Origin: Bradyrhizobium cosmicum | GTDB taxonomy: Bacteria > Pseudomonadota > Alphaproteobacteria > Rhizobiales > Xanthobacteraceae | Direction: 5' to 3' | Assembly (NCBI RefSeq): GCF_007290395.2 | Contig: NZ_CP041656.2 | Coordinates: 4,030,001-4,094,000, forward strand | Length of the DNA stretch: 64,000 bases | Shown here: one piece after another, positions 3,349 to 24,351 of the stretch | Position numbering within the stretch: position 1 is the first letter of the stretch | Layout: each line of letters begins with the position of its first letter | Translations under genes and position numbers: made by a program | Notes under the pieces: generated by a model | What the model was told of the DNA's origin: nothing | What the model saw: only the letters and a program-made list of their open reading frames with translations | Database searches by the model: none

Positions 3349-4335
3349 TCAGACCGTCGCGATGTCGTCCCCGGCCGTCTGCCATTTTGCAAGTCCCAGG
3401 GTTTGCGACGGACGCTCTCCGAACATCGCGAGGTAGTATTGCGAGAACCGTCCGAGCTCGTAGAAGCCATGCTGCATGGCGACGGACGCCACGGTGATCG
3501 AGCCCGGAGCGCTCTCTTTCAGAATGGAATGAACAGCGCATAGACGCTTGTGTCGCAGGAAGCTGACCGGGCCGAGGCCGAACACCTCCTGGAATGCGCG
3601 GTGCAAGGTGCGCCGCGACACGCCCAGGGCCGCGCAGATCTCGGAAACATGCACCGGACGCGTACCGGCTTCGTCGAGATACTCCTCGACCCTGCGGATC
3701 AGCCGTCTCGCGGAAGGCAGCCAGCCATTGTCGTCGGGCGGCAAGGACGACATGACGTTGGCAGCCATGCATTCGACGATCGATCGCTTCCAGAAGTCGG
3801 CGGTCGACGAGGTCAACCCGTATTTGTTGTCACGCAGATGCGACAAGATCCGGACCAGTCGGCGTGAGGCAATCGCGCCGGTGTCGGGGTCCGCCCGAAA
3901 ATGACCGCGGCTGCGCCAGGTGTCGGGATCGCTGAGCCTCGCCTCGCCGCCAAACAAGGACGTGACGTCGCTGAGGTCGAAGCGCATGGCGGCGTAAGCG
4001 GACGCGCCGTGAAAGACGCCATCATGTTCGAGCAACGGAGGGATCACGAGCACATCGTTGAGCTGCATGTCGAACGACCAGTGGGCGACGCGCTCCTCGG
4101 CCGACAGCAACATTCCGATGATCAGCTTGTCGTCGCTGGAGCTGCGCTGGGTGCGCATGCCGACGTTGAATGCGCCGACGCTGAGCGAGAAGTCGCCGAT
4201 GCCGACATGCGACAACGTCCCACGCAGCCGCCCGCGTCCGAGCTGCATCACGTCGACATGCGAGCCGTGAACGGCCTGATGAAGGCCTTCGAAGCCGTCG
4301 AGCTTGCGCGAATCGACCAGAAGAAACTGCCCCAT
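3349..4335 (-). CDS. AraC-family transcriptional regulator
   Basis: Protein of 328 residues. The last 100 or so residues hold the paired helix-turn-helix of AraC/XylS, including VSEICAALGVSRRTLHRAF and a second helix near HGFYELGRFSQYYLAMFG. The N-terminal 200 residues are an effector-binding domain without a recognisable signature. AGGG lies about 7 bases before the ATG at 4335. The downstream SDR gene (2462-3205) is convergent with it, and the divergent neighbour is the formylglycine-generating enzyme about 500 bp away. Control of that enzyme is possible but unproven. Confidence 0.88.
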   Translation of the reverse strand: MGQFLLVDSRKLDGFEGLHQAVHGSHVDVMQLGRGRLRGTLSHVGIGDFSLSVGAFNVGMRTQRSSSDDKLIIGMLLSAEERVAHWSFDMQLNDVLVIPPLLEHDGVFHGASAYAAMRFDLSDVTSLFGGEARLSDPDTWRSRGHFRADPDTGAIASRRLVRILSHLRDNKYGLTSSTADFWKRSIVECMAANVMSSLPPDDNGWLPSARRLIRRVEEYLDEAGTRPVHVSEICAALGVSRRTLHRAFQEVFGLGPVSFLRHKRLCAVHSILKESAPGSITVASVAMQHGFYELGRFSQYYLAMFGERPSQTLGLAKWQTAGDDIATV

Positions 4336-4832
4336 GGCCGACCCTGTTACCGAAGCGCGACAATTCTGCGGCAGTCAAAGGCGGAATACCACTACAACGC
4401 GAGGTGGATGTGACAGGGTGACTTCGCGTTTCGAAGCAACTCATCGCGAATCTGATGTGAGATATCTGTTCGAAATGGCTTTGTATTGGGGGATTTGCGA
4501 CAGATTCGTCAGGTCTCACCAGTTGCCGCAAATGCTGGCACAAACTGCACATCACATCCGTCCAATCTTCGGATACCGTCTTCAACCTTAGCGATATCAA
4601 GCGGATGAGCTCTGCGGATGGCGGAGCGCGTGCGGCAGGGGTTTGCCGCGTACTCGTACACGCGTGCGCCAAAGGGATGGGATGCTGACCTAATGCGCCG
4701 GCTTCATCTCTCCCAAGCGCCAAAGAGGGGATCAGACAATGCGTCCCACGTATCAGGAACTGCGCCGCAGGCGACGTCTGCTGACGTTTGCACCGTAGCG
4801 CCCGGTGGAATTCGCGCATCGGAGTTTCCATC
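4336..4832. other. Divergent intergenic region between AraC gene and FGE gene
   Basis: About 500 bases with no convincing gene longer than 60 codons. It must hold the promoters of the AraC gene and of the formylglycine-generating enzyme. The only item that stands out is a 19-codon reading frame with a good ribosome-binding site at 4739-4798, listed separately. Confidence 0.6.
4739..4798 (+). CDS. Possible Arg-rich leader peptide upstream of the FGE gene
   Basis: A 19-residue frame, MRPTYQELRRRRRLLTFAP, starts at ATG 4739, eight bases after GAGGGG. It ends 34 bases before the FGE start. Five consecutive arginine codons (CGC CGC AGG CGA CGT) mix common and rarer codons. That is the layout of a translational leader or uORF that could pause ribosomes. 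No alternative stem-loop pair was worked out. It could equally be chance in a GC-rich sequence. Confidence 0.25.
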   Translation: MRPTYQELRRRRRLLTFAP

Positions 4833-8824: not shown

Positions 8825-10351
8825 ATGACTCTTATCAACCTCCGCAATCTCGGCGTGACGCTGAGCGCACCGCTCTTTTCCCAGCTGAACCTCGTCGTCA
8901 ATGCCGGCGACCGAATTGGGCTTGTCGCGGCCAACGGTCGCGGAAAATCCACTCTGCTGCGCTGCATCGCGGGCGCTATGGAAGCGAGCGAAGGTGAGAT
9001 CACCCGATCCCGAGGGCTGATGGTGGGTTATGTCGAGCAGGATGTGCCGGAAGCTCTGATGGATCGGACCTTCTATGCAGCCGTGCTTGAGATGCTCTCC
9101 GCTGACCAACGGCTTGGCGAACGCTGGCGGGTAGATGTGGCGATGGAGTCGCTTGAGGTGCCCGAGACGCTGCGGCAGAGGCCGCTGAAACACCTGAGCG
9201 GCGGCTGGCAGCGGGTTGCCATGCTTGTCCGTGTGCTGGTGACGGAGGCCGACGTGCTGTTGCTCGACGAGCCGACCAACCATCTCGACCTCGCCCGGAT
9301 CGGCCGGCTTGAAAATTGGCTGAACGCGCTGCCGCACGATATGCCCGTCGTCATATCCAGTCACGATCGCGCCTTTCTCGATGCGACCACGAACCGGACG
9401 CTGTTCCTGCGGCCGGAGCAGTCGCAGGTGTTTTCATTGCCCTATACACGGGCGCGGGCCGCACTTCGCGAGGCTGACGCATCGGACGAGCGGCGCTATC
9501 AACGCGACCTGAAGGCCGCCCAGCAACTTCGCCAGCATGCGGCGAAGCTCAACAACATCGGTATCAATTCCGGAAGCGACCTTTTGCTGTCGAAGACCAA
9601 GCAATTGAAGCAGCGCGCCGAGAAGCTGGAACATGTGGCAAAGCCTGCGCATCTCGAACGATCCGCAGGGACGATTAGGCTTGCCAATCGCGGAACGCAC
9701 GCCAAGGTCCTGGTCACGCTGGATGAAGCCGCGGTCGAGACGCCGGATGGCCGGTTGCTGTTCAGGACCGGCAAGCAATTTATCTGCAAGGGCGATCGGA
9801 TCGCGCTGCTGGGGCCGAACGGGGTAGGCAAGACCCGGTTGGTGGCGATGCTGCGCTCGGCAATCGAAAATCCGGGCGCCACCCATGCCGGCATCAAGGC
9901 CACGCAGTCGCTCGTGCTCGGCTATTGCGATCAGGCTCTCGCCCATCTTGTCGATGCCGAAACGCCGGTGCGCGCGCTCATTCGCCGTTTCGATGTCGGC
10001 GATCAGCGTGCGCGCGCGCTGCTCGCAGGCTCCGGCCTCTCGATCGAGATGCAGGGCCGTCCGATCGGCCGGCTTTCCGGCGGACAGAAGGCGCGTCTCG
10101 GCTTGCTGTTGCTGCGGTTGGCCCAGCCCAACTTCTATCTTCTCGATGAGCCGACCAACCATCTGGATATCGAGGGGCAGGAAGCTCTGGAGGACGAATT
10201 GATGGACCATCAGGCAAGCTGCCTGCTGGTCTCACATGACCGCAACTTCGTGCGAACGGTGGGCAATCGGTTCTGGCTGATCGATAGGAAGAAGCTGTTG
10301 GAACTGGATGGGCCGGAGGGGTTCTTTGCATCGGTCGGTGCAACAGGTTAG
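8825..10351 (+). CDS. ABC-F family ATPase (ribosome-associated type, no membrane domain)
   Basis: Protein of 508 residues with two ABC ATPase domains in tandem and no transmembrane segments. Domain 1 has AANGRGKST, LSGGWQR and LLLDEPTNHLD. Domain 2 has GPNGVGKT, LSGGQKARLG and LLDEPTNHLD. ABC-F proteins act on ribosomes as translation factors or as ribosome-protection antibiotic-resistance factors; which applies here cannot be told. The interdomain linker is lysine- and arginine-rich (TKQLKQRAEKLEHVAK), as expected for a ribosomal P-site-reaching linker. I chose the ATG at 8825, where the conserved N terminus TLINLRNLGVTL begins; the longer frame from 8774 adds no conserved sequence. The next gene cluster is a drug-efflux operon, so a resistance role is plausible. 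Confidence 0.9.
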   Translation: MTLINLRNLGVTLSAPLFSQLNLVVNAGDRIGLVAANGRGKSTLLRCIAGAMEASEGEITRSRGLMVGYVEQDVPEALMDRTFYAAVLEMLSADQRLGERWRVDVAMESLEVPETLRQRPLKHLSGGWQRVAMLVRVLVTEADVLLLDEPTNHLDLARIGRLENWLNALPHDMPVVISSHDRAFLDATTNRTLFLRPEQSQVFSLPYTRARAALREADASDERRYQRDLKAAQQLRQHAAKLNNIGINSGSDLLLSKTKQLKQRAEKLEHVAKPAHLERSAGTIRLANRGTHAKVLVTLDEAAVETPDGRLLFRTGKQFICKGDRIALLGPNGVGKTRLVAMLRSAIENPGATHAGIKATQSLVLGYCDQALAHLVDAETPVRALIRRFDVGDQRARALLAGSGLSIEMQGRPIGRLSGGQKARLGLLLLRLAQPNFYLLDEPTNHLDIEGQEALEDELMDHQASCLLVSHDRNFVRTVGNRFWLIDRKKLLELDGPEGFFASVGATG

Positions 10352-10402
10352 CACCGCGGCCCTCCTGTCGCTCTGCGTGCCGACGGTCAGGCCGGCGCGT
10401 GC

Positions 10403-10460
10403 ATGTCTGTTGTTGGCCCGAAACGGACCCGAGCATTTCGGCCGACCATGTCTGCTCCAG
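10403..10460 (+). repeat. Diverged intergenic repeat, copy 3
   Basis: ATGTCTGTTGTTGGCCCGAA at the start resembles the minus-strand sequence of copy 1 (7911-7980) at about 16 of 20 positions. A second ATGTCTG follows at about 10448. It is inferred to belong to the same dispersed family. Confidence 0.35.
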
Positions 10461-10512
10461 GGGGGGAGACACGACATCCCGCTTCGAGTTCGCCGAGATC
10501 AACGGAGGCGAC

Positions 10513-10534
10513 CTCACGCGCGAGATCGCGTGAG
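10513..10534. terminator. Hairpin after the RND efflux operon
   Basis: Perfect 8-base arms ctcacgcg (10513-10520) and cgcgtgag (10527-10534). It lies 19 bases beyond the stop of the minus-strand RND permease gene. There is no T tract, so it may be a weak terminator or an mRNA-stabilising stem. Confidence 0.4.
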
Positions 10535-10553
10535 ATACCGCTCCATGAGGCGG

Positions 10554-13500
10554 CTATTCCGCGGGCTGTGCGGTTGCGACCGGCGTCGAGCTGGCCGCCT
10601 CATCCCGCTTGCCCGGAAATATCCTCCGGACCAGGACGAACAGCGCGGGCACGAAGAAGATGCCGAGACCCGTCGCGGCAATCATGCCGCCGGCGACCCC
10701 GATGCCGACCGCATTCTGGCTGGCGGAGCCCGCGCCTGTCGCCACCGCCAGCGGCAGAACGCCGAGGATGAAGGCGAACGACGTCATCAGGATCGGGCGA
10801 AGGCGCTGACGCGCCGCGTGCAGGGTCGCATCGACGAGGCTGCGGCCGGCGGCGATCTGCTCCAGCGCGAACTCGACGATCAGGATCGCGTTCTTCGAGG
10901 CGAGGCCGATCGTCGTGAGCAGGCCGACCTGGAAATAGACGTCGTTGGCCTGGCTGAAGAACGTTGCCCCGAGCAACGCGCCGAGCACGCCGATCGGTAC
11001 CGTCAGCATCACCGCGAACGGCACCGACCAGCTCTCGTAGAGCGCGGCGAGGCTGAGGAAGACGATCAGCAGCGAGATCGAATAGAGGTACAGCGTCTGG
11101 CTGCCGGTCAGCCGCTCCTGGAACGACAATCCGGTCCATTCGTGGCCGTAGCCCTTGGGCAGCTTCGCCATCTGCTCTTCCACCGCCTGCATGGCGACGC
11201 CCGAGCTGATGCCCTGCCCCGCCTGCCCCTGGAGCTCGACGGCGGCCACGCCATTGTAGCGCTCGAGCCGCGGCGAGCCGAAGCTCCAGCGATTGGTGGC
11301 GAGCGCCGAGAACGGCACCATGGAGCCCGAGGCGTTGCGGACGTACCAGCGGCCGATGTCGCTGGTGTCCATGCGGAAGGGCGCGTCGCTCTGGACATAG
11401 ACCTGCTTGACGCGGCCGCGGTCGATGAAGTCGTTGACATAGGCGCCGCCCCACGCCGCCGACAGCGTGGTGTTGAGATCGCTGAGGCTCACGCCGAGCG
11501 CCGTGGCCTTGGCCTGGTCGACGTCGAGGTTGAATTGCGGCGTGTCGTCCTGGCCGTTCGGCCGCGTCTGCGCCACGCGCTTGTCGGCCGCAAGTTGGCC
11601 GAGCAATTGGTTGCGCGCCTGGATCAGCGCGTCGTGGCCGCCACCGCCGGTATCCTGGAGATAGACGTCGAAGCCGCCGGCATTGCCGAAGCCAGGGATC
11701 GAGGGCGGCAGCACCGCAAACACCATCGCGTCGCGGATCTTTGCGAATGCACCCATGGCGCGGCCGACCACCGCCTGCGCCGAAGCCGCCGCGTCCTTGC
11801 GTTCGTCGAACGGCTTCAGGCTGACGAAGGCAAGAGCGACGTTCTGGCCCTGGCCCGAGAAACTGTAGCCGCTGACCGCGAACACGCCCTGCACGGCGTC
11901 CTTCTCGTTGTCGAGATACTGTCGCTCGACCTGCTTGATCACATCGAGCGTGCGGGTGGCGGTTGCGCCGACCGGCAGCTGGATCAGGGTGATAATCGTC
12001 CCCTGGTCCTCTTCGGGCAGGAACGAGCTCGGCAGCCGCTGGAACAGGAACACCATGCTGGCGACAATGGCCGCGAAGGCGATGATCACTGCCGTGATCC
12101 GTTTGATCGCGGCGCCCGCGGTGCGCTGATAGCCAACGGCCATGCGGTCGAAGCCGCGGTTGAACAGCCCGAAGAAGCCGCGCTGCGCACCGTGATCCCC
12201 AGGCGGCTTCAGGATCGTGGCGCACAAGGCCGGCGTCAGCACCAGCGCCACCAGCACCGAGAGCAGCATCGCCGTGACGATGGTGAGCGCGAACTGCCGA
12301 TAGATGATCCCGACCGAACCGTTGAAGAACGCCATCGGGATAAACACGGCCGAGAGCACGACGCCGATGCCGACCAGCGCGCCGGTGATCTCGCGCATCG
12401 ATTTCTCGGTCGCCTCGCGCGGACCGAGTTTCTCCTCGGCCATGACGCGCTCGACATTCTCGACCACGACGATGGCATCGTCGACCAGGAGGCCGATCGC
12501 CAGCACCATCGCGAACATCGTCAACGTGTTGATCGAATAGCCGGCGAGCGAGAGCACGCCGAACGTACCCAGCAGCACCACCGGCACTGCGATGGTCGGA
12601 ATGAGGGTGGCCCGCCAGCTTTGCAGGAACACGAACATCACGACGAAGACGAGCGCGATCGCCTCGAACAGCGTGTGGATCACCTTCTCGATCGACAGCT
12701 TGACGAACGGCGTGGTGTCGTAGGGATAGATGACGCGAAGCCCCTCCGGCATGGTCGCCGTGAGCTGGGCGATGCGCGCCTTCACCGCTTCGGAGGTCGA
12801 TACCGCATTGGCGCCGGTGGCAAGGCTGATGCCCATGCCTGCGGCGGGCTTTTCGTTGTAACGCGCCGTGGAATCGTAGGACTTGGAGCCGAGCTCGACA
12901 CGCGCGACATCGCCGATGCGCACCGTCTGGCCGGTCGATGCGGTGCGCAGGATGATATCCTTGAACTGCTCGACCGTTTGCAGGCGGCTCTGAGAGGTGA
13001 TGGTGGCATTGAGCTGCTGGCCGCCGACGGCCGGCAGGCCGCCGAGCTGGCCGGACGTGACCTGGGTATTCTGTGCCTGGATCGCAGTGGTGACGTCGCC
13101 GGGCATCAGATTGTATTTGGCAAGCTTGTCCGGGTCGAGCCAGATCCGCATCGCGTATTCGGCGCCGAACAGCTGAACCTGGCCGACGCCGGCGACGCGG
13201 CTTATGGGGTCGTTGATCGATGATGCCACGTAATCGGCGATGTCGCTGGCGCTGAGCCGGCCGTCCTCGGAGACGAAACCAAGCACCAACAAGAAGCTCG
13301 ACGACGACTTCACGACCTTGATGCCCTGCTGCTGCACCACCTGCGGCAGCAAGGGAGTCGCGAGCTGGAGCTTGTTCTGGACCTGGACCTGGGCGATGTC
13401 GGCGTCGGCCTGGTTGGTGAAGGTCAGCGAAATCGACACGGCCCCGGTCGAGGAGCTCGACGACGACATGTATTGCAGATTGTCGAGACCGGTCATGTTC

Positions 13501-13705: not shown

Positions 13706-14914
13706 TTATTGCCCGGCTGTGACGGGCGCGGGCCGCGCATCGGCCTGCCGCGTCGGGTTCACCGTGAGACCGCTCGCCGGATCAACCGCGACCTCGACGG
13801 TCTTCACCGCCGCGCCGGGACGCGCCTTCTGCGTGCCATCAACGACCAGGCGATCGCCGGATTTGGCGCCCGACTGCACCAGCCAGTTGCCGTCGACCCC
13901 CTCGCCCAGATCCAGCGTGCGCTGCTCGATCTTGCCGTCCTTGTCGACGAACATCGCGACCGCCTGCCCGAGCGGATTGCGCGAGACAGCTCGCTGCGGC
14001 ACCAGGATCGCGGCCGGATCGACGCCGGCAATCACGCGTGCGCGCACATACATGCCGGGCAGCAGCGCCCGCTCGGGATTGGCGAAGATCGCGCGCGAGG
14101 AGACCGAGCCGGTGTTCTCGTTGACGCTTGCATCGGTGAAACCGTACTTGCCCTTGTGGCCGTAGGTCTTGCCGTTCTCCATCAGCAATTCGACCTGGAC
14201 GCCATCGGCCGGACGCTTCAGCTTTCCGCTCGCGATCTGGCTGCGCAGCCGCTCCATCTCCGAGGTCGACTGGTCGAGATCGACGTAGACAGGGTCGAGC
14301 TGCTGGATCGTGGTCATCGCGGTCGCCTGGCTCGCCGTGACAAGCGCGCCGGGCGTGATGGTCGACTTGCCGATCCGGCCCGAGATCGATGCGGTGACCT
14401 TGGTGCGGTCCAGCGAGATCGCGGCGGTGTCGCGGTTGGCCTGCGCCGCGTGCAGGTCGGCCTCGCCCTGCTTGTAGGCGGCAACCGCATCGTCGACGTC
14501 CTGCTGGCTCGCCGCGTTGGTCTGGAGAAGCTGGGTCTTACGCTGGGCCTTCAGCTTCACGCTGACGAGCGTTGCCTCCGCCTTCTGCACCGCGGCGTCG
14601 GCGCTCGCCAATGCCGCCTTGTACTGGACGGGATCAATCTCATAGAGCTGAGCGCCCTCCTTGACCTCGGTCCCTTCGACGAAATCGCGCTTGAGCAGGA
14701 TGCCGGTGACCTGGGGACGCACCTCCGAGACCTGATAGGCAACGACGCGGCCCGGCAGGACCGTCGAGATCTTGGCCTCCTGCGGCTTCAACGTGACGAC
14801 GCCGACTTCAGGCGCCATCTGTTGCGCGACCGGCGCCTGGCTCTGCTCGCCGCAGGCCGCGAGCGACAGCAAGGCGAACAACGGAACAATGCGGACGACC
14901 GGGGCAAGCATCAT
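13706..14914 (-). CDS. RND efflux periplasmic adaptor lipoprotein (AcrA family)
   Basis: Protein of 402 residues. The N-terminal signal ends in the lipobox SLAAC-GEQ, so it should be lipid-anchored in the periplasm. Conserved adaptor segments follow: [20 protein letters not shown] and [20 protein letters not shown] around the coiled-coil hairpin, then a C-terminal membrane-proximal region. It bridges the RND pump and an outer-membrane channel. Two adjacent ATGs (14914 and 14911) could start it; upstream frame without conserved sequence is excluded. It is the first gene of the efflux operon, immediately behind the tandem operators. Confidence 0.93.
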
Positions 14915-14973
14915 GACTATCCATGGACGATTTGGCCAACACTGCCGATGCGGCGATCTGGCTGGAAACATTA

Positions 14974-15013
14974 GGAAACTATGCAGTTTCATTCTGGAAA
15001 CTTGGTAGTTTCC
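14974..15013. promoter_or_regulatory. Tandem TetR-type operators between efflux operon and its regulator
   Basis: Site 1 is ggaaact-atgc-agtttca (14974-14991) and site 2 is ggaaact-tggt-agtttcc (14996-15013), the latter a perfect palindrome. Their centres are 22 bp apart, two helical turns, so two dimers would bind the same face. A third half-site ggaaac lies at 14964-14969. A minus-strand TTGACT (15022-15027) places site 2 over the efflux promoter spacer and -10 area. The regulator's own start is 83 bases away, so autoregulation is likely. Confidence 0.72.
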
Positions 15014-15096
15014 TTCCTCGAAGTCAAGTGATAGGCTGGCGGCAGAATTCCGGATCAAGCGGTCGTGATGCAGTGGATGTTTAACGGCAGGTTTAC

Positions 15097-15774
15097 ATGA
15101 CGAGCCAATCCAGCAGTCGCAGGCGTACCGGCGGCGGCACGCGTTCGGAGCGGGAGAGACGGGACCTCGACCTCCCTGCCCCGAATGCGCGCATGATGCA
15201 GTTGCTGGCGGCAGCGAAGGCCACTTTCACCAGCAAGGGTTTTGCCGCGACCACGATGGATGACATCGCCGGCGCAGCCGGGATGTCGAAGAAGACGCTC
15301 TACAAATTGTTCGAGAGCAAGACCGAGCTATTCCGGGCCATGCTGCTGCGCAGCCTGCCCGAGGCCCATTTCGCAAACCCTCCCTTGTCAGGATCGCCGA
15401 CCGCGCAGCTACGAACCGCACTCCGCAGAATTGCGGACGTGGTGCTCGCGCCCAGCGAAATCGCACTGCACCGCCTGATCATCGGCGAGCGCCAGGCCTC
15501 ACCGGACCTCGGCCGCATGTTCGCGGAGGTTATCATGGAGAGCGGCCCCGACGACGTGGCAGGCCTGCTCGAAACTGTCAGGCTTGAACCGCGCCTCGAA
15601 GGCGTGCCGCTCCGCGCCGTCGCCGAAATGCTGCTGGGAATGGTGTTCAGCCACGATCATTTCAGGCTGCTCACCGACGACGGATTCCGCCTCAACCGCC
15701 GTCTGCTGGACAAGCGGATCGATCTTGCGATTGCGATGTTCTGTGTGCCGGAAGATCACTCTGCCAAGCCGTAA
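15097..15774 (+). CDS. TetR/AcrR-family repressor of the efflux operon
   Basis: Protein of 225 residues. A disordered basic N-terminal tail of about 30 residues precedes the TetR helix-turn-helix (MDDIAGAAGMSKKTLYKLFE, near residues 50-70). The C-terminal part is a variable ligand-binding domain of the AcrR type. It is divergent from the efflux operon, and two matched palindromes lie between the genes. It most likely represses both transcripts until an inducer binds. The inducer is unknown. Confidence 0.9.
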   Translation: MTSQSSSRRRTGGGTRSERERRDLDLPAPNARMMQLLAAAKATFTSKGFAATTMDDIAGAAGMSKKTLYKLFESKTELFRAMLLRSLPEAHFANPPLSGSPTAQLRTALRRIADVVLAPSEIALHRLIIGERQASPDLGRMFAEVIMESGPDDVAGLLETVRLEPRLEGVPLRAVAEMLLGMVFSHDHFRLLTDDGFRLNRRLLDKRIDLAIAMFCVPEDHSAKP

Positions 15775-15814: not shown

Positions 15815-18800
15815 TCAGCCGCGCGGGCGCTCCTGGAGGTCGCACATCAGCCTGATGGCATCCGAGCGATCCCCGCCCTCCGGCTGACCGGCGAAGAATT
15901 GCAATTCGTGCTGCAGCAGCGTGCGGGCGCCCTCGGTCTGACCTTTGGTAACGAGCAATCCGGCAAGACCCACCGCGGCGCGCAAGCCGAATCCGCGCTG
16001 GCCACGCCGGTGGGCGAGCGCGTGGGCCTGCTTGAAATTCTGTTCGGCGAGCCCGGTGTCGTTGATTTGCGCATGTGATGCAAATCGCCCTTCGATACGC
16101 AGGCACTCGGCCTCGTACCAGTAATTGCCGCCCCGCCCGAAGACATTGCGCGCCTGATCGAGACAACGTCGGGCGTCCGCCAGCCTGTCGGAGCGGACAT
16201 AGGCTTCCGCGAGCCAGCAAAGGTACCATGGCAGCTGGTAGACGACGTGCGCCATCTGCAGGAAATCGCGCTGCTTCTCGAGCACGTCGATGCCTTCCGC
16301 CAGCCGGCCGCTTTCAATGTCGGCCCAACCGAGGAATGTCCGCGCCACCGAAATCCACAGCGGCAGCTCCCGTCTGATCGCCCCCTCGAGCGTCCGCTGT
16401 GCGAGCGCCCGCACCGTCTGGACGTCCCGCTCCAGCGTGTAGAGCATGCAGACATGCGCGTAGGCGTAGCCGAGGGTATGGGCATGCGCCAATTGCTGCG
16501 CGTGCTTAAGTGCCTCCCGGCCATGCTTGATCGCATCAGTCACCCGGCCCACCAGCCAGCAGCATATGCACAGGTTGGACAGACTGGTGACCTGCACATC
16601 CGTGCCGTACGTCACGGCCGTCGCACGGTCGGCGGCAGCATCGTAGAGCTTGACCGCCCGGTCGAGATGGACGCAGGCCTGCTCAGTCTCCCCGTCGAGC
16701 AACGACGTGCCGAGCAGCCGGTGGCCGACCATCCGATCGGCCCTCGTTCCCTTTTGCTCGGCGAGAGTCAGAAAGTCCTGCGCCAGCGTGCCCGCCTCGC
16801 GAACGTTGCTTGCGACGCGTAAATAGGACCATCTTGCGTACAGCGCCGGAAAGATGCGCGTATCGTTGTCGAGAGCGCGGCACAGATCGATGGCACGACT
16901 GCTCACATCCGCGACCGCATCCGCGCCAAATCCCCGCAATGCGATCGTCGGCCCGATCAGCGCGATCTGGACGTTCAGCTCCAGATTATCCCGCTCAAGT
17001 CCCGCTGGAAGCCTCCGGATCTCCTCGAGCGCCATGTTGAGCTCGGCGATCGCCTCCAGATTTGCCGAACGTTCCGCTGCCTGCTGGGCCGCCTTGAGCC
17101 GCATCTGCGCCGCTCGGGAGGTGCGTCCGGCCTCGGATAAATGCTGCGCGAGATAGCCTGGTTCCGTGATGGCAACTTCGGGCAGATGGAGTTCGATCTC
17201 CGCAGCCACGCGGTCGTGCAGTTCCCGTCTCTGGCGCTTGAGAAGCGAATAATAGGCGACGTCACGGACCAGGGCGTGCTTGAAGGAATAGACCTTTTCG
17301 TCGTCGTCGCGCTCAAGCCCGATCAATCCAGACGCCCGCAGGCGCTCGAGGGCGGGGTCGAGGGCGTCCTGAAGCTCACCCGCAACGGCAGCAAGAAGCC
17401 GATGCGGAAAGCTTCGGCCAATCACCGACGCGAGCTGCGCGACCGCCTTGGCATTTCCGAGCCGCTCGAGACGCAGCATCAAGGAATCGTAGAGCGCCGA
17501 CGGCACCTCCGAAGGCCCGCTGGCGCCGACCGTCCTGACGCCCGGATCGAGCTGGCCGGTCTCGACGGCTGCAGCCGCCAACTCCTCCACGAACAGCGGC
17601 ACACCGTCTGATCGCGCGACGATCTGCTGGATCAACTGGCTTGACAGCTGCTTGTCGCGAACGACCGATCCGGCGAGATCGCGGCATTGCTCGTCGTCAA
17701 GGCGCTGAAGCACGATGCGCAGGATCGTCGGCGAGACGTTGCCGATGATGGACGACCGGCTAGTGACGACCAGGAGAGACCGCGTGCCATCGACCTGGCC
17801 GGCAATGCGCTCGATGATCTCGATCGTCGAGGGATCGGCCCAGTGAAAATCTTCAACCAGGATCAGGCTGGCCTCGCCGCGCGACTGCGAGGTCAACAAC
17901 CGCACGGCCGCATCGCGCGTTTTACGGCGCTGCTCATGCGCGTCGGGAATTGTCGGGCCTGACACCATCGGCACCGGTAAACCGAGCATCCGGCCGATCA
18001 GCGTCAACTGCTCCTCGTCGCCGCCGGACGTCGCGGCCATGAAATCACGCAGACGCGCCGAATTCACCTCGGCGTCCTCGTCCCTGGCAATGCCAATGCG
18101 TTGCTCCAGAGCTCTGATGATCGGGTATAACGGCGTGTTCTGATGCGGAGCGGAAGCCTGGATCGCCAGGATCAGATCATCCGGCAATGCGGCCCTGTCG
18201 ATCAGCTCCAACGCCAGGCGCGACTTGCCGATCCCGGGCTCCCCGGTGATCTCCACCGTACGCCCCTGCCCGGTCGTCGCCAGCTCCCAAGCCTGCAGCA
18301 ACTGGCCGAGTTCAGTCACCCTGTCGATGAGGCGCGAGGCATTGCGGTGGCGGGCGCGATGGCCGGCGCCATCTTTCGGCGTCTCGCCCGCGACGAGAAA
18401 GACCTCGACCTTGCGCGACAATCCCTTGAGCGACCGCATGCCGAGCGGCTGCAAGGCGAATTCGCCGCGCAGGAGACGCCTGGTCTCACCACTGATCACG
18501 AGCGAATTGGGCTCGCCCATTTCCAGCAAGCGGAATGCGATGTTGGGCGTCTCGCCGACGATCTCCGTCGCATCGTGCACATGGCCGGGCCCCGCCTTGC
18601 CGATCACCGCGACACCCGTATGGACCCCGATCCGAACGCGAAGCGGTTCCTGGATCGCCGCCGTGGCGCGTTCGCTCAATTCTTGAAGTTCGCGCAGCAA
18701 CGTCAGGCCAACGCGGACCGCACTCTCCGCTTCGTTCTCCGAAGTAAGCGGATAGCCGAATTCCGCACGAATACCGTCGCCGATGTAGTTGACGACGCTG

Positions 18801-18967
18801 CCACCGGCATTGCTGATGCATCGCGAGCTTATCGCTTGGAATTCCAGCAATAATTCTCGCAAATCCTCGATGTCGCAGCGCTCGGAGAGGCCCGTTGAAT
18901 CAACGACGTCGCAGAACAGGACGGTCAGTTGGCGGCGTTCGGTTACTCTGTCTTGAGACTCGTCCAT
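15815..18967 (-). CDS. Class III nucleotide cyclase fused to AAA ATPase and TPR-like region
   Basis: Protein of 1050 residues in three parts. Residues about 12-185 form a class III adenylate/guanylate cyclase domain with both metal aspartates (LFCDVVDSTG, YIGDG) and the Asn-Arg pair near NIAFRL, so it should be active. Residues about 210-600 form a STAND-like ATPase with Walker A GEPGIGKSR and a Walker B-like LILVEDFHWADPS. The rest is helical repeat sequence of TPR type (QLAHAHTLGYAYAHVCM and similar). No membrane segment is visible. Such proteins are thought to couple ligand or partner sensing on the repeats to cNMP synthesis. GGGA lies 7 bases before the ATG at 18967; a GTG at 18970 is adjacent. 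No output gene is nearby. Confidence 0.9.
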   Translation of the reverse strand: MDESQDRVTERRQLTVLFCDVVDSTGLSERCDIEDLRELLLEFQAISSRCISNAGGSVVNYIGDGIRAEFGYPLTSENEAESAVRVGLTLLRELQELSERATAAIQEPLRVRIGVHTGVAVIGKAGPGHVHDATEIVGETPNIAFRLLEMGEPNSLVISGETRRLLRGEFALQPLGMRSLKGLSRKVEVFLVAGETPKDGAGHRARHRNASRLIDRVTELGQLLQAWELATTGQGRTVEITGEPGIGKSRLALELIDRAALPDDLILAIQASAPHQNTPLYPIIRALEQRIGIARDEDAEVNSARLRDFMAATSGGDEEQLTLIGRMLGLPVPMVSGPTIPDAHEQRRKTRDAAVRLLTSQSRGEASLILVEDFHWADPSTIEIIERIAGQVDGTRSLLVVTSRSSIIGNVSPTILRIVLQRLDDEQCRDLAGSVVRDKQLSSQLIQQIVARSDGVPLFVEELAAAAVETGQLDPGVRTVGASGPSEVPSALYDSLMLRLERLGNAKAVAQLASVIGRSFPHRLLAAVAGELQDALDPALERLRASGLIGLERDDDEKVYSFKHALVRDVAYYSLLKRQRRELHDRVAAEIELHLPEVAITEPGYLAQHLSEAGRTSRAAQMRLKAAQQAAERSANLEAIAELNMALEEIRRLPAGLERDNLELNVQIALIGPTIALRGFGADAVADVSSRAIDLCRALDNDTRIFPALYARWSYLRVASNVREAGTLAQDFLTLAEQKGTRADRMVGHRLLGTSLLDGETEQACVHLDRAVKLYDAAADRATAVTYGTDVQVTSLSNLCICCWLVGRVTDAIKHGREALKHAQQLAHAHTLGYAYAHVCMLYTLERDVQTVRALAQRTLEGAIRRELPLWISVARTFLGWADIESGRLAEGIDVLEKQRDFLQMAHVVYQLPWYLCWLAEAYVRSDRLADARRCLDQARNVFGRGGNYWYEAECLRIEGRFASHAQINDTGLAEQNFKQAHALAHRRGQRGFGLRAAVGLAGLLVTKGQTEGARTLLQHELQFFAGQPEGGDRSDAIRLMCDLQERPRG

Positions 18968-19182
18968 CACTCATCCCGGAATTCTGACAATGTTCCGCGG
19001 TTCGATTTGGCGCCGCTGCCATCTTTCCTGAGCGTCCAGAGATTGCACCCTTCTCCCGAGAGAAGTCCACGCTGCAGTGACCGATATTCGGTCAGCCATA
19101 CTGTCCCGTCACAACGACGACAGTCCCAATCCAGATCAGAAGGCACGCTTCGTCTGACGGCTCTGAGCCAGTCCTGACGGGC

Positions 19183-20541
19183 TCAGAGCAGGTTGGCAAA
19201 GAATGGGTTCAGCATGCGCCCGGACGGATCCTCTTGCTTGACGTGCGCAGAGAACTGCGTCCATCGCTGCCCATACGCCGCCGTGACATGCTGCTTCGTG
19301 ATGAACGGACTTTGATTCAGCAAAGGAATGCCGTTCCTCTTGTACGCAAACTCATTGAACTCCTTCAAAAACCCGTCCCACGCCGGCCTGTCCGTATAAG
19401 CGTGAATGGGGTCGACTGAAAAAATGTCTCCGTCATGCGAATAGGACAGCAACGAATGCTCGTCCTTACGAATGAAATATGAGCCAAGCGCCATGTTGCA
19501 GCGAAAGTCATGGTCCTCGAAATACTTTTCGCTGAAGTCCACGTAGTCGCGCAGAACATTCAGCCATTCGTGGCGCGGAAAGGCCCAGAATGTAAATGCA
19601 TATCGCGCCGACGGCGGCGTTTGGCTGTAGTCGATCGTCTTGTCGGGATTGTACAGGGTGGCTCCGCCGGCCAGGTGCAGGAATGACATCAACAGCCTAT
19701 TGCCGACGAACCACGTGTCGAGCGTCGCATCCCTGAGAGGCTTGGTCGGGACGCTGCTGTCGATGAACCTGCCAACGCGGGCTTCCGCATAATTCCAGAG
19801 CTTCCGGCGGCTGGCGGCGAACAGCGCCCCCAACGGTCCAACCCTGTCGATGGGATGTCGCGTCTGAAAGTGCGCCTTTCGGCCGACCGTCCAGCAGATC
19901 AGGCCTCGCGACGCATCGATGATCCCATCCACTTCCTTCTCGGTCAGTTGTCCGATCGGGCGCGGCAAATATCTGAAGTGGATCGCCTCCAGCGGCTTGA
20001 TGCGAAAGGTGACCTCGTAAATCACGCCGCACAGTCCGTAACTCGAGCGCATCAGGTACATCAGGCCCGGGTTTGTGGCCTCCGACGCTTCCGCCAGATC
20101 GCCGCTGGGCGTCACCCACTTGATCGCTGTAATGTAAGAGCCGACCTGCCCGAACTCGCCGCCATCCAGGCCATCCTTGGTGTGGCAGCAGGCTGCCGCA
20201 CCGAGCGTCATGTTCCCGATCTCGATATTGGTCACGAACTGCAGATTCATCGCCCGCAACACCCGCGACGCGGCAATGAACTGGAGGCCCGCTTCGGCCG
20301 TGAACGTCATGCTGTGGGGATCGATCTTGAGGATGCGGCTCATCCGGGACATGTCGATGATCGTCCCGTCCGAGGATGCGCACGGCGTCAAGGAATGATA
20401 GCTGCCCATCGCCCGAACAGGACTTGGGTAGCCGTCGGCGTCCCTCAGGATCGATTGAATCTCGTCGACGGAGCGCGGCGACACGAGTTGCGCGGGAGAG
20501 CTTGTGATCCCGCCATCGTAATTGCGAACCATATTGCCCAT
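19183..20541 (-). CDS. FAD-linked oxidase (aldonolactone oxidase-like)
   Basis: Protein of about 452 residues. The N-terminal half is a FAD-binding domain of the vanillyl-alcohol oxidase/PCMH type, with VRAMGSYHSLTPC (the His is where covalent FAD often attaches) and IEIGNMTLGAAACC. The C-terminal half resembles the D-arabinono/L-gulono-lactone oxidase domain. It oxidises a sugar lactone or another alcohol using O2 or a carrier; the substrate is unknown. AGGGGG lies 8 bases before the ATG at 20541; a GTG at 20550 is the alternative. It is divergent from the heme peroxidase/P450 pair and could share a promoter region with it. Confidence 0.82.
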   Translation of the reverse strand: MGNMVRNYDGGITSSPAQLVSPRSVDEIQSILRDADGYPSPVRAMGSYHSLTPCASSDGTIIDMSRMSRILKIDPHSMTFTAEAGLQFIAASRVLRAMNLQFVTNIEIGNMTLGAAACCHTKDGLDGGEFGQVGSYITAIKWVTPSGDLAEASEATNPGLMYLMRSSYGLCGVIYEVTFRIKPLEAIHFRYLPRPIGQLTEKEVDGIIDASRGLICWTVGRKAHFQTRHPIDRVGPLGALFAASRRKLWNYAEARVGRFIDSSVPTKPLRDATLDTWFVGNRLLMSFLHLAGGATLYNPDKTIDYSQTPPSARYAFTFWAFPRHEWLNVLRDYVDFSEKYFEDHDFRCNMALGSYFIRKDEHSLLSYSHDGDIFSVDPIHAYTDRPAWDGFLKEFNEFAYKRNGIPLLNQSPFITKQHVTAAYGQRWTQFSAHVKQEDPSGRMLNPFFANLL

Positions 20542-20867
20542 CTGCGTCACCCCCTGGACGGCGAAACACGCAACTCAAGATGGCTTTTCGGTCTTGCCGA
20601 CGCCGGTGTCGGCCTGGTTCTCACGAGGTTGAAGTGCGTTGACGCGCAGCTTTGCCCCCGCTCACGCAAATTCAGCCGGGTCGCCTGTGCACCCCACGGC
20701 TGTATGGCATCCTATCCGAGCGAATATTCAACCAACAGGAAAAATTGAATGCCCGGCGACCGCGGCCTCCAGCAAGTCACGTTGGCAAGCGGGCACTTTG
20801 GTGCTATTGAACCACATTTATTGGTTGCAAGCCCAATTTATTCACGCGTTTGCGTTTGGGAGTGCCA
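20542..20867. promoter_or_regulatory. Divergent promoter region, FAD oxidase / heme peroxidase
   Basis: About 325 bases between two divergent genes. Near the peroxidase it becomes AT-rich, with two TTTATT copies (about 20816-20843) and a GGGAG ribosome-binding site at 20858-20862. I found no clear palindrome or sigma-70 match. Confidence 0.4.
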
Positions 20868-22688
20868 ATGTCCCGAGAGAACGATGGTTTTGTCTTCCAT
20901 CGTGGCCTGCTCCAAGGTGTCCTGGATATTGTGTTTCGGGCCATCAACTTCTTCGCCAGATGGGACCACCTGCCGACCCTGCTCGCGGCCGCAAATCTTT
21001 CGGTCTTCCGCAACCGGCTGCGGGAGCACAATCTCCACCATACCGGCTACGGGACGACATCGCCTGGCTGGAGCACTGGCAACGAGCGCTGGCGGTCCGC
21101 CGACGGCTCATTCAACAGCCTCGATCATCCACGCATGGGCATGGCTGGCGCCCGGTTCGGACGCAATTTTCCGCTGCCGGAATGCGTGCCGGACAGCGGC
21201 AGCGATCTGCTCGACCCCAGCCCGCGCGTGATTTCGCAGGAATTGCTGGCTCGCCACACCTTCATTCCCGCGACCAGCATCAATCTGCTTGCCGCCGCCT
21301 GGATCCAGTTCGAAACGCACAATTGGTTCAGCCATGGGTTGCCGAAGCCGGGCAACGAATTCAAGATTCCACTTCCGCCAGGCGACGACTGGCCTAAAGA
21401 GGAGCTGATCGACGGCTGCATGAAGATCCGTCGCACGGTTTGCGACGCATCAACGCGCGAACCATGGCTCGGCGCCACCCCGACATTTCGCAACCTCAAC
21501 TCGCACTGGTGGGACGCCGGACAGATCTACGGCAGCAGTCGCGAAAGGCAGATGCAGATTCGCTCCGGGGTCGATGGCAAGATCGCGGTCGGCAACGACG
21601 GAATGCTTCCAGCCGATCCAGATCATCAGGGAGCTGATCTCACCGGCTTCAACGACAATTGGTGGGTCGGGCTCGGCCTGCTGCACAATCTCTTCGCACG
21701 CGAGCACAACGTCATCTGCGATGGCTTGAAGACGCGGTATCCGACCTGGGGCGACGAGGAGCTGTTCCAGCGCGCGCGCCTGATCAACGCGGCCCTGATC
21801 GCCAAGATCCATACCGTCGAATGGACGCCGGGCATCCTCGGCCATCCTGCGCTCGACCTCAGCATGCACGCCAACTGGTCGGGGATACCGAACCGGGTGC
21901 TGCGCGCGGTGCTCGGCAAGGACAGCGAAGCCGCCTACGGCATCATCGGCTCTTCGACCGACCAGCATAGCGCGCCCTACGCGATGACCGAGGAATTCAC
22001 CGCCGTCTACCGCCTGCACCCGCTGGTCCCGGACAAGATGGAGGTGCGGAAGCTCGATACCACGGACTCGAAATCCTACGATCTGGTCGATATGCAGGGA
22101 CGAGCCTCCCGCGCGTTCATGCAGACTCACGGCTTCGTCGACCTGCTCTACTCTTTCGGCACGGCTCATCCCGGCGCCATTCGCCTGCACAACTACCCCA
22201 ACTTCCTTCGCAAATTCACAAAGGACGACCAGCCGCTGCTCGACGTCGCCGCGATCGATATCATGCGCGACCGCGAACGCGGCGTGCCGCGCTACAACCG
22301 CTTCCGCGAGTTGGTCGGCAAAAAGCGGGTTACGACATTCGAGGAAATCACCAGCATTCCCGGCGCGGCAAGGAAGATGCGCGCGATCTACAAGGGCGAC
22401 GTCGACCGCGTCGATCTGATGGTCGGGCTGTTGGCCGAGGACCTGCCGGACGGTTTTGGCTTCAGCGATACCGCCTTCCGCATCTTCATCCTGATGGCAT
22501 CGCGGCGTCTCAAGAGCGACCGCTTCTTCACCGACGACTACCGGGCGGAAGTCTATACCGACTTCGGTCTCGACTGGATCCAAAACAACGGAATGAAATC
22601 AGTACTGCTGCGGCACGTGCCGCAACTCGGCCCGGCGCTCGAGGGCGTCAACAACAGCTTTGCCCCCTGGAACGTATCGGGAGGCTGA
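20868..22688 (+). CDS. Heme peroxidase/dioxygenase, plant alpha-dioxygenase-like
   Basis: Protein of 606 residues in the animal heme peroxidase (cyclooxygenase) superfamily, closest in pattern to plant fatty-acid alpha-dioxygenases. AAAWIQFETHNWFSH carries the distal heme His151. NDNWWVGLGLLHNLFAREHN matches the conserved central block. TEEFTAVYRLHPLVPD carries Tyr381, equivalent to the cyclooxygenase/alpha-DOX radical tyrosine, and His384 as proximal heme ligand. All residues needed for fatty-acid dioxygenation are present, so it probably makes fatty-acid hydroperoxides. Length matches plant enzymes (about 640). There is no signal peptide. The ATG at 20868 follows GGGAG. It ends 3 bases before the P450-like gene, so the two are translationally linked. 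Confidence 0.87.
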   Translation: MSRENDGFVFHRGLLQGVLDIVFRAINFFARWDHLPTLLAAANLSVFRNRLREHNLHHTGYGTTSPGWSTGNERWRSADGSFNSLDHPRMGMAGARFGRNFPLPECVPDSGSDLLDPSPRVISQELLARHTFIPATSINLLAAAWIQFETHNWFSHGLPKPGNEFKIPLPPGDDWPKEELIDGCMKIRRTVCDASTREPWLGATPTFRNLNSHWWDAGQIYGSSRERQMQIRSGVDGKIAVGNDGMLPADPDHQGADLTGFNDNWWVGLGLLHNLFAREHNVICDGLKTRYPTWGDEELFQRARLINAALIAKIHTVEWTPGILGHPALDLSMHANWSGIPNRVLRAVLGKDSEAAYGIIGSSTDQHSAPYAMTEEFTAVYRLHPLVPDKMEVRKLDTTDSKSYDLVDMQGRASRAFMQTHGFVDLLYSFGTAHPGAIRLHNYPNFLRKFTKDDQPLLDVAAIDIMRDRERGVPRYNRFRELVGKKRVTTFEEITSIPGAARKMRAIYKGDVDRVDLMVGLLAEDLPDGFGFSDTAFRIFILMASRRLKSDRFFTDDYRAEVYTDFGLDWIQNNGMKSVLLRHVPQLGPALEGVNNSFAPWNVSGG

Positions 22689-22691
22689 GCC

Positions 22692-23591
22692 ATGGCTCTC
22701 GTCATCAGCATTCCGGGCCTTGTCCGCCTCGCGATCGTTCGCGATCCGGACGAGCTGCTCCGCGTCAATGATGCGGGGACGGTCACCCGACCATTGTCCG
22801 GCCGCGGTGGCCTATTCAATCGCTCGGTCGCGGCAAAGCTCGCGGCTTTTCGCACGGCTGATGGCGATATCTGGCCGGCGTTTCGTGACCGGTACGATCC
22901 GTTGCGCGCGGTGCATCAGGCGAAGCTCGAATCCAGGCTTTCGAACGTCGAGCCACTGTTGCAAGACATCGCGCCGGAGATCACCGAGCTCGGAAACTAT
23001 GTCGGCGGCGGGCATGCGCATCGCGGCATGGGCGTCGTCGTTCAGCAAGCAGTGGGCCGGCTCTTCTTCGCCGACTATGTCGCGAGCGAGGAGTCCTATG
23101 AGGCAGCGCGGACGTTGCAGGCCTGGCTGTCGGCCTGGCCGCTGCGCGCGTGCTGGATCAAGCACAGCGGCGCGTTGAAGGCCTCGCTCGATCGGATCGA
23201 GGCGGCCTCGCGCGGCAATATGGCTTGCGCGCATGCAACAGCGCTTGCATTGGAGAATCTCGTTATGTCGATCGAGCTGATGCGCGAGCTGGCACGGCAT
23301 GGCGATAATCTGGCGAAGATCGAACCACAGGAAGCGGCGATCCGCACCCTGCGCGCGCCGGCACGCGTGGTCCGCGAGACGCGCGACGGCGATTTCATAG
23401 GGACGCTCCGGCTGCGATCACGAACATTGATCCTGCTGGCGCTTGAGGATGCCCACCAGCAAGACGCCGCCAAGCTGGGCTTCGCATTCTTCACCGGCAC
23501 CTGGAATCAGTGCCCGGCGCACGGCCTCGTCCCGACCTTGCTCCGCAAGGTCTGGGAGGCGGCCAAGACCAGCGCGGAAAGACGTGCGTGA
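22692..23591 (+). CDS. Miniature cytochrome P450-like protein paired with the dioxygenase
   Basis: Protein of 299 residues. The C terminus reads FAFFTGTWNQCPAHGLV with Cys274 in the position of the P450 heme-thiolate cysteine. Before it, EAAIRTLRAPARVVRET and LRLRSRTLILLALEDAH match the K-helix and beta-sheet region of P450s. It is about 100 residues shorter than a normal P450. The I-helix oxygen-activation motif (A/G-G-x-D/E-T) is not visible, and ExxR is altered to ExxxR. That pattern fits P450s such as plant CYP74 or fungal diol/PPO synthases, which rearrange hydroperoxides instead of activating O2. It probably acts on the product of the preceding gene. An inactive relic is the alternative. 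Confidence 0.68.
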   Translation: MALVISIPGLVRLAIVRDPDELLRVNDAGTVTRPLSGRGGLFNRSVAAKLAAFRTADGDIWPAFRDRYDPLRAVHQAKLESRLSNVEPLLQDIAPEITELGNYVGGGHAHRGMGVVVQQAVGRLFFADYVASEESYEAARTLQAWLSAWPLRACWIKHSGALKASLDRIEAASRGNMACAHATALALENLVMSIELMRELARHGDNLAKIEPQEAAIRTLRAPARVVRETRDGDFIGTLRLRSRTLILLALEDAHQQDAAKLGFAFFTGTWNQCPAHGLVPTLLRKVWEAAKTSAERRA

Positions 23592-23622: not shown

Positions 23623-24351
23623 CTAGCAAGCGAGCCTGTCGGCAATCCCGCCAAAATCCCTGGCGACGATGTCCCAATTGCCGGTGGCCTCGAAGTCCAC
23701 CTTCTGCAACGGACCGTACTCGGTCGGCCGGGCCACGAACGCCGTCTTCAGCCCGTTCTTCTGGGCGGCGCCTAGATCGCCATTGTGGGCAGCGACCATC
23801 ATCACCTCTTCCGGCTTGAGGCACAGCAGACGCGCGGCGCCGAGATAGGTCTCGGGATCGGGCTTGTAGTGCTCGAACAGCTCGGCCGACATGATGAGGT
23901 CCCAGGGAAGGCCCGCAAACTTCGCCATGTTGGTGAGCAGCGCCACGTTGCCGTTCGAGAGCGGTGCGATCACGAACTTCGTCTTCAGCCGGGTCAGGCC
24001 GGCGACGCTGTCGGGCCAGGGATGCAGACGGTGCCAGCCCTTGGTGAGGTGGTCGAGATCGGCGTCCGTGAGGCCCTTGATTGCAAACTTCTCGACCAGC
24101 TTGTCCAGCGAGCGGCGGTGCAGGTCGTCCAGCATAACATAGCCACGCTCGGGGTGCTTGCGCACGTCGTCCATGGAGGCCGTATACATGGCGCGCCAGC
24201 CGTCGACGAGGGCGGTCCAGTCCGCACTGATGCCGCGCCCCTTCGCCCACCACATGAAGTCGGTGATCAGGCTGGTGCGCCAGTCCACGACGGTGCCGAA
24301 CACGTCGAAGACGAGGGCTTTGACGGCGGTGAGATCGGACGTCGTGGTCAT
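23623..24351 (-). CDS. Haloacid dehalogenase type II (L-2-haloacid dehalogenase-like)
   Basis: Protein of 242 residues of the HAD superfamily. Motif I is LVFDVFGTVVDW with the nucleophilic Asp; motif II is APLSNGN; the Lys is in HYKPDPETY; and motif III/IV is MVAAHNGDL. This order and the AAHxxDL form are typical of L-2-haloacid dehalogenases, which hydrolyse haloalkanoic acids to hydroxy acids. Activity on another substrate is possible. GGAG precedes the ATG at 24351. It is convergent with the P450-like gene, 31 bases apart. Confidence 0.88.
   Translation of the reverse strand: MTTTSDLTAVKALVFDVFGTVVDWRTSLITDFMWWAKGRGISADWTALVDGWRAMYTASMDDVRKHPERGYVMLDDLHRRSLDKLVEKFAIKGLTDADLDHLTKGWHRLHPWPDSVAGLTRLKTKFVIAPLSNGNVALLTNMAKFAGLPWDLIMSAELFEHYKPDPETYLGAARLLCLKPEEVMMVAAHNGDLGAAQKNGLKTAFVARPTEYGPLQKVDFEATGNWDIVARDFGGIADRLAC

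Follow-up and report, generated by a model that had tools for sequence, protein, structure and literature searches.

The window analysed here is a stretch of 64,000 nucleotides of Bradyrhizobium cosmicum (G000:C1:4030001-4094000) from a single-contig genome of 7.27 Mb. Two of its genes, on the same (+) strand and designated as gene 1 and gene 2, encode an alpha-dioxygenase (alpha-DOX)-like haem peroxidase and a short protein with a predicted cytochrome P450 fold, referred to as the "mini-P450". Gene 1 extends from an ATG at 20868 to a TGA at 22686-22688 and gene 2 from an ATG at 22692 to a TGA at 23589-23591, with a spacer of three bases (GCC). A preliminary description of this DNA had given the coordinates, order and spacing of the two genes correctly. 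The closest named relatives of both proteins are from Bradyrhizobium. The features of the locus are as follows.

19183..20550, - strand: divergent FAD-linked oxidase, 455 aa (FAD_binding_4, PF01565)
20858..20862, + strand: GGGAG, purine-rich, ribosome-binding-like string of gene 1, read by eye
20868..22688, + strand: gene 1, alpha-dioxygenase-like haem peroxidase, 606 aa (PF03098; plant alpha-DOX matches; residue map)
22008..22010, + strand: codon of Tyr381 of gene 1, equivalent of the radical Tyr (residue map on rice alpha-DOX)
22679..22684, + strand: GGGAGG, purine-rich, ribosome-binding-like string of gene 2 within the end of gene 1, read by eye
22692..23591, + strand: gene 2, mini-P450, 299 aa, predicted P450 fold without ExxR (AF2 model; Foldseek and VIA matches)
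23232..23234, + strand: codon of His181 of the mini-P450, I helix, invariant in 67/67 (alignment and AF2 model)
23373..23375, + strand: codon of Arg228 of the mini-P450, invariant in 67/67 (alignment)
23511..23513, + strand: codon of Cys274 of the mini-P450, predicted haem thiolate ligand, invariant in 67/67 (alignment and structural matches)
23623-24351, - strand: HAD-type hydrolase, downstream of the pair (family scan)

The FAD-linked oxidase scored below the NCBIfam cut-offs, and its closest solved relatives are distant enzymes of the aldonolactone dehydrogenase and xylitol oxidase types. It adjoins an adenylate/guanylate cyclase with AAA and TPR regions (15815-18970, - strand), which is also found beside the oxidase in all ten GTDB loci described below. 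At 13706-15774, a TetR regulator with an AefR-like C-terminal domain is divergent from an HlyD/CusB-type efflux adaptor.

Active site of the gene 1 protein

The gene 1 protein matched Pfam family PF03098 with 373 bits (E 2.7e-111). The best PDB chains were the plant alpha-DOXs 4kvj (E 6e-106) and 4hhr (E 7.6e-106), from rice and Arabidopsis, whose similarity extends over the full length (E ~1e-106), followed by lactoperoxidase (E 2e-27) and prostaglandin synthases (E about 1e-20). Among these PDB chains, a set that holds no fungal dioxygenases (DOXs), gene 1 is thus nearer to alpha-DOXs than to cyclooxygenases and peroxidases. When gene 1 was mapped on rice alpha-DOX, 15 of the 16 positions were identical. 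Specifically, the distal His151, the radical-site Tyr381 and the proximal His384 correspond to His157, Tyr379 and His382 of the rice enzyme, and the site for the carboxylate and the alpha carbon is kept as His315, Thr320 and Arg547 (rice H311, T316 and R559). According to sections of PMC8720084, H311 and R559 bind the carboxylate and T316 places the alpha carbon. The other identical positions are L53, R57, W315, A331, F375, F549, F552, I553 and A556 in rice numbering, and the sole mismatch is M325, which is Leu329 in gene 1. Gene 1 shares its catalytic and carboxylate-site residues with the plant enzymes, and the plant and cyanobacterial fatty-acid alpha-DOXs (OsaDOX, AthDOX, CalDOX and LepDOX) are its nearest known counterparts. 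In 36 DOX reads from the loci, which include that of the window and cover some genomes twice, ten key positions are unchanged apart from H311Q in L034 and R57Q in L093; L064 and L065, both truncated by their contigs, miss two of the ten columns. Sections of PMC8720084 report alpha-DOX sequences from five bacterial phyla. On these sequence comparisons gene 1 very probably encodes an alpha-DOX, and the preliminary description was right both in naming an alpha-dioxygenase-like haem peroxidase and in finding the distal His, the radical Tyr381 and the proximal His384 kept. Elsewhere in the genome, the haem peroxidase family has two more partial matches, at G000:C1:5411642-5412196 (- strand, E 5.5e-18) and 6094496-6094843 (+ strand, E 1.1e-12).

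The same description had gone further and equated the pair with exactly the two activities of fungal linoleate diol synthases (LDS) and PPO proteins. A split LDS or PPO would carry out mid-chain (8-, 9- or 10-) oxygenation and then form a diol or an allene oxide. The gene order, a COX-superfamily dioxygenase and then a P450-fold partner, is indeed that of the fungal fusions as given in sections of PMC13049297. However, gene 1 keeps the alpha-DOX carboxylate site, and its tyrosine motif is Y-R-L-H in place of the Y-x-W or Y-x-F of the six fungal enzymes in a table of PMC13049297, the comparison being with the motifs tabulated there. Gene 1 is therefore assigned to the alpha-DOX type and not to the 8/9/10-DOX type; on this sequence evidence the fungal pair of activities and linoleate diol chemistry are not supported, and a split LDS is highly improbable.

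Predicted fold and haem site of the gene 2 protein

Gene 2 is a real gene, because it has relatives (203 at E <= 1, and 470 at E <= 10 when a profile built from two subfamilies was used) and because its dN/dS values (Nei-Gojobori) are 0.20-0.51 in 11/11 pairs. The values for the DOX in the 11 pairs are 0.15-0.23, and the ratio of gene 2 is the higher one in ten of them. Both genes are under purifying constraint.

The AF2 model of the mini-P450 has a pLDDT of 91.7 and a pTM of 0.89, and all 50 matches listed by Foldseek and all 50 listed by VIA were P450s. The nearest solved folds are CYP175A1 and the Staphylococcus CYP134A1 orthologue, with identities of 10-14%. As modelled, the protein almost certainly has a P450 fold. 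At the sequence level, proof of the kinship failed in each of three attempts: Pfam gave no P450 family for the mini-P450 of the window or for five relatives scanned; hhalign against nine P450s from the same genome was not significant (E 0.064, probability 0.9%), with the match spanning the expected region (gene 2 199-257 with P450 285-351); and a profile search of PDB sequences had no P450 among the matches listed. A Pfam match to Herpes_IE2_3 in one relative (E 0.017, below the cut-off) was judged to be noise. The mini-P450 thus represents a P450-fold family unrecognised by the libraries searched, and the earlier label "P450-like" stands for the fold predicted by AF2, Foldseek and VIA and fails for the sequence as seen by Pfam, hhalign and the PDB profile search.

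The chain is about 100 residues shorter than that of an ordinary P450. Only nine residues (203-211) lie between helix I and the next long helix, and the chain ends with helix L; the model therefore seems to lack helices J/J' and the C-terminal sheet. The ExxR motif of helix K is also absent from the mini-P450 of the window. In an alignment of 67 sequences picked from match lists and loci, five have an ExxR string in the region 203-232, three residues off what we take to be the usual spacing to the following Pro. P450s without ExxR exist (CYP157).

The alignment has 14 invariant columns (67/67): P8, R33, G39, F125, A138, G160, H181, P223, R228, F266, W271, C274, P275 and A276. C-P-A occupies the thiolate position in all 67 sequences, the CxG signature of P450s is absent, and the context of the cysteine in the window is W-x-x-C-P-A. 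Four structural alignment rows (1n97_A, 7y0t_B, 2f9q_A and 4nky_D) end inside helix L, at residues 296, 298, 297 and 298 of the model paired with CYP175A1 358, BM3 424, CYP2D6 466 and CYP17A1 466, respectively. With helix L read ungapped, Cys274 lies opposite the thiolate cysteine in all four rows, these cysteines presumably being Cys336, Cys400, Cys443 and Cys442. The rows of 4xry_A, 5tfu_B and 6oyu_B end past helix L and hence give no register. The model and this register suggest that gene 2 is likely to bind haem through a Cys thiolate. The preliminary description was correct in expecting such a cysteine in a P450-like protein; yet this is no ordinary P450, as it lacks ExxR and about 100 residues and has no family match. 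Relative to the superfamily it differs in its low identity, in C-P-A for C-x-G, in the loss of ExxR and in its shortness.

His181 sits in a broken I helix (177-184 and 187-202 in the AF2 model), and Thr183 nearby is kept in 62/67 sequences. The I helix of P450s carries an acid-alcohol pair near this position. Any role of His181 is a guess from its position, and Arg228 is a possible haem-propionate Arg. A C-helix W-x-x-x-R was considered as a P450 feature and dropped because it is confined to the subfamily of the window (Trp61 in 26/67 and Arg65 in 29/67).

A degenerate, non-catalytic P450 fold, serving for example as a haem carrier or as a membrane-anchored accessory of the DOX, would account for the loss of ExxR, for the shortened chain and for the fusion of the mini-P450 to a small membrane protein in G401 and in two 440-aa proteins. 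Against such a role, Cys274, His181 and Arg228 are among the invariant columns and gene 2 is under purifying selection, and we regard it as very unlikely.

Distribution of the pair and its neighbours

Gene 2 was found in two of 60 related genomes besides its own (three counting its own) and in 11 of 391 genomes of the family. The order survey (397 genomes) gave eight strong matches among 15 and the phylum survey (398 genomes) four among seven, the remaining seven and three being weak partial profile matches (E 6e-5 to 8e-3); these four surveys overlap. Within the genus, the DOX is present in 20 of 265 genomes. Eighteen same-genus DOXs are at least 78% identical to gene 1: twelve have gene 2 downstream and the FAD oxidase upstream, and six have neither, the oxidase having been looked for within 1.5 kb, and over 18 kb in the L068 genome. 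Gene 2 was also absent from the rest of these six genomes in a genome-wide search, which covered two more genomes and gave one chance-level match (E 1.1). The joint absence of mini-P450 and FAD oxidase was considered as independent evidence of linkage; it is weakened, because the six loci need one change on the DOX tree (support 73/78; 78% of 200 bootstrap trees) and are possibly one event. Two peptide patterns run against GTDB contigs matched ten loci, all Bradyrhizobium, and 10/10 have both genes and the FAD oxidase.

Distant gene 2 sequences (25-35% identical) were found in twelve genomes outside the genus, and in 11 of these a DOX (44-48%) lies directly upstream on the same strand. Together with the twelve same-genus loci, in all of which the FAD oxidase is beside the pair, 23 of 24 genomes have an alpha-DOX just upstream of gene 2, with gaps of -16 to 51 bases (13 in L063). 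The two-gene module is therefore supported, and the proposal of separate, conserved bacterial genes in the order of the fungal fusions has held up. The exception, G343, has the mini-P450, the old-yellow-enzyme and the dihaem cytochromes together (L062:8995-12811) with no adjacent DOX; a DOX-like gene (959 aa, 31%) is far off at L067:4669-7548, and the first enzyme was possibly swapped. A class-survey match, G629 (33% over part), was set aside as a peroxidase that lacks the pair.

These counts bear on whether the two enzymes are coupled. The products of alpha-DOXs are 2-hydroperoxy acids, which decay spontaneously by decarboxylation to Cn-1 aldehydes, so that a partner is not strictly needed. 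Alpha-DOX alone might yield the aldehydes, and the mini-P450 would then be a later monooxygenase or peroxygenase acting on the aldehyde or another substrate with outside electrons or H2O2. Alpha-DOXs without mini-P450 do exist, in six of the 18 close same-genus loci, which means that the DOX can do without it, and in L035 and L036; moreover, the genome has 12 PF00067 matches, whose redox partners might serve the mini-P450. This uncoupled role is rather unlikely in view of the 23/24 adjacency and the lack of any ferredoxin or reductase family among eight window proteins scanned. The loss of ExxR and the replacement of the I-helix acid by His would also be unusual for a reductase-dependent P450.

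The pair is part of a larger, variable gene set. In the genomes outside the genus, gene 2 has beside it an old-yellow-enzyme-like gene (11/12), a RoxA-like dihaem cytochrome gene (10/12) and a small membrane protein gene (9/12). In G401, gene 2 is fused to the small membrane protein and the old-yellow-enzyme and dihaem genes are absent, and in G443 the contig ends. Pfam assigned PF00724 in the representative locus L063 and PF21419 in both of its dihaem proteins. One dihaem protein had RoxA (4b2n) as its sole PDB match (E 2.2e-7), and the five dihaem proteins read all contain PYLHNGSV, a string given in sections of PMC4496055 for the 10S-DOX and diol synthase of P. aeruginosa (PA2077/PA2078). 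The likeness to this oleate-diol synthase pair and to RoxA concerns the RoxA-like domain and, for PA2077/PA2078, the string; it applies to the operons of other families, as no dihaem gene adjoins the pair in the window. The rest of the genome contains just one short, distant dihaem cytochrome match (E 2.6e-8) and five old-yellow-enzyme relatives (31-36%).

RoxA cleaves polyisoprene, according to sections of PMC4496055, and the RoxA-like proteins of the wider operon could be taken to mean that the substrate is not an ordinary fatty acid but a different hydrophobic acid (an isoprenoid acid, for example) and that the gene set is catabolic and not used for signalling. Since the residues of the rice fatty-acid enzyme are kept at 15/16 mapped positions, the closest tested enzymes are fatty-acid alpha-DOXs and the window pair has no dihaem gene, such a substrate is unlikely.

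Other arrangements were observed at related loci. The small membrane protein is fused to the C-terminus of the mini-P450 in 440-aa chains (L064:6860-8182; P0263 and P0334), and tblastn found a similar sequence in the N-terminal part of the second dihaem cytochrome; the same domain therefore moves between partners. Within the genus, L069:7115-9955 (the gene in L036) encodes an alpha-DOX (42%; PF03098) whose chain carries a fused catalase-family domain at its N-terminus (PF00199, E 5.5e-11), another haem partner for alpha-DOX. L035:865-3429, also of the genus, encodes an alpha-DOX (47%) with a long, membrane-like N-terminal extension and is followed by an ORF at 3389-4807, of which a 456-aa part scanned had no Pfam match. 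In L068, a same-genus locus without gene 2, a metallo-beta-lactamase-fold gene upstream of the alpha-DOX on the same strand replaces the FAD oxidase (alpha-DOX/metallo-beta-lactamase-fold locus, 8899-10731 and 10911-11882).

Proposed chemistry and its precedents

Peroxide formation followed by conversion is probably the best reading of the pair. The case for coupling consists of the adjacency and the constraint on both genes, and neighbours tied to lipid oxidation are found in other families (the dihaem proteins with PF21419 and PYLHNGSV). In the first step, the alpha-DOX, strongly supported by sequence as to its identity, would generate a radical on Tyr381 at its haem; the radical would take the alpha-carbon hydrogen of a fatty acid, or of a comparable hydrophobic acid, bound by His315, Thr320 and Arg547, and addition of O2 would give a 2-hydroperoxy acid. 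In the second step, the mini-P450, confidently predicted as to its fold, would bind haem via Cys274 and cleave the O-O bond of the hydroperoxide without a redox partner, aided by the invariant distal His181, so that the product would be rearranged, dehydrated or cleaved in place of spontaneous decarboxylation. In a third step, suggested by the neighbours, a flavin enzyme may finish the product; in other families this would be a reductase of the old-yellow-enzyme type, accompanied by dihaem cytochromes, and here the FAD-linked oxidase. We consider the chances about even that the pair is a two-enzyme module which makes and then converts peroxides, and equally balanced that gene 2 acts on the DOX peroxide without a redox partner.

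As precedents, sections of PMC13049297 describe DOXs whose haem partners are self-sufficient. Fungal LDS and allene oxide synthases (AOS) and the thromboxane and prostacyclin synthases have P450 folds that convert peroxides with no redox partner, and the cleavage is influenced by polar residues above the iron (sections of PMC13049297). The fungal DOX-CYP fusions (linoleate diol, allene oxide and epoxy alcohol synthases, and PPO) resemble the present pair in placing a P450-fold partner after a COX-superfamily dioxygenase and in the proposed mode of action. However, they form one chain, whereas here a stop codon and three bases separate two ORFs and the dioxygenase is of the alpha-DOX type; their CYP partners keep an HxC Cys pocket (sections of PMC13049297) where the mini-P450 has W-x-x-C-P-A, and unlike them the mini-P450 lacks ExxR and is about 100 residues short. 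Compared with the plant and cyanobacterial alpha-DOXs, a P450-fold gene follows here, and the available sections of PMC8720084 mention no P450. In the literature searched, as far as its text was available, the nearest prokaryotic precedent is the Nostoc punctiforme 10S-DOX, in which a separate haem protein converts the DOX hydroperoxide as proposed here (sections of PMC13049297); its partner is a catalase-related hydroperoxide lyase and not P450-fold, and its DOX is a mid-chain enzyme. Titles and abstract beginnings in the open-licence part of PMC contained neither a bacterial alpha-DOX with a P450-fold neighbour nor such a mini-P450.

Tentatively, and with more doubt than attaches to the two-enzyme module, the proteins of about 299 aa may form an unrecognised branch of the P450 fold, with ExxR and several helices lost, that is dedicated to the self-sufficient conversion of alpha-DOX 2-hydroperoxides. 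If true, they would constitute, with the old-yellow-enzyme and the fatty-acid-oxygenase-like dihaem cytochromes, a bacterial route to alpha-oxylipins that is the formal counterpart of the plant sequence of dioxygenation, CYP74 and OPR. Signalling by prostanoids, jasmonate and fungal oxylipins depends on dioxygenases that have a haem partner. The host is a soil bacterium of a genus rich in plant symbionts, and the two small-to-medium proteins, encoded in one transcript-like unit, make the proposal directly testable. Both the P450 fold and the biochemistry of lipid mediators would gain a branch from a bacterial system that combines an alpha-DOX with a miniature P450 devoid of the near-universal ExxR motif.
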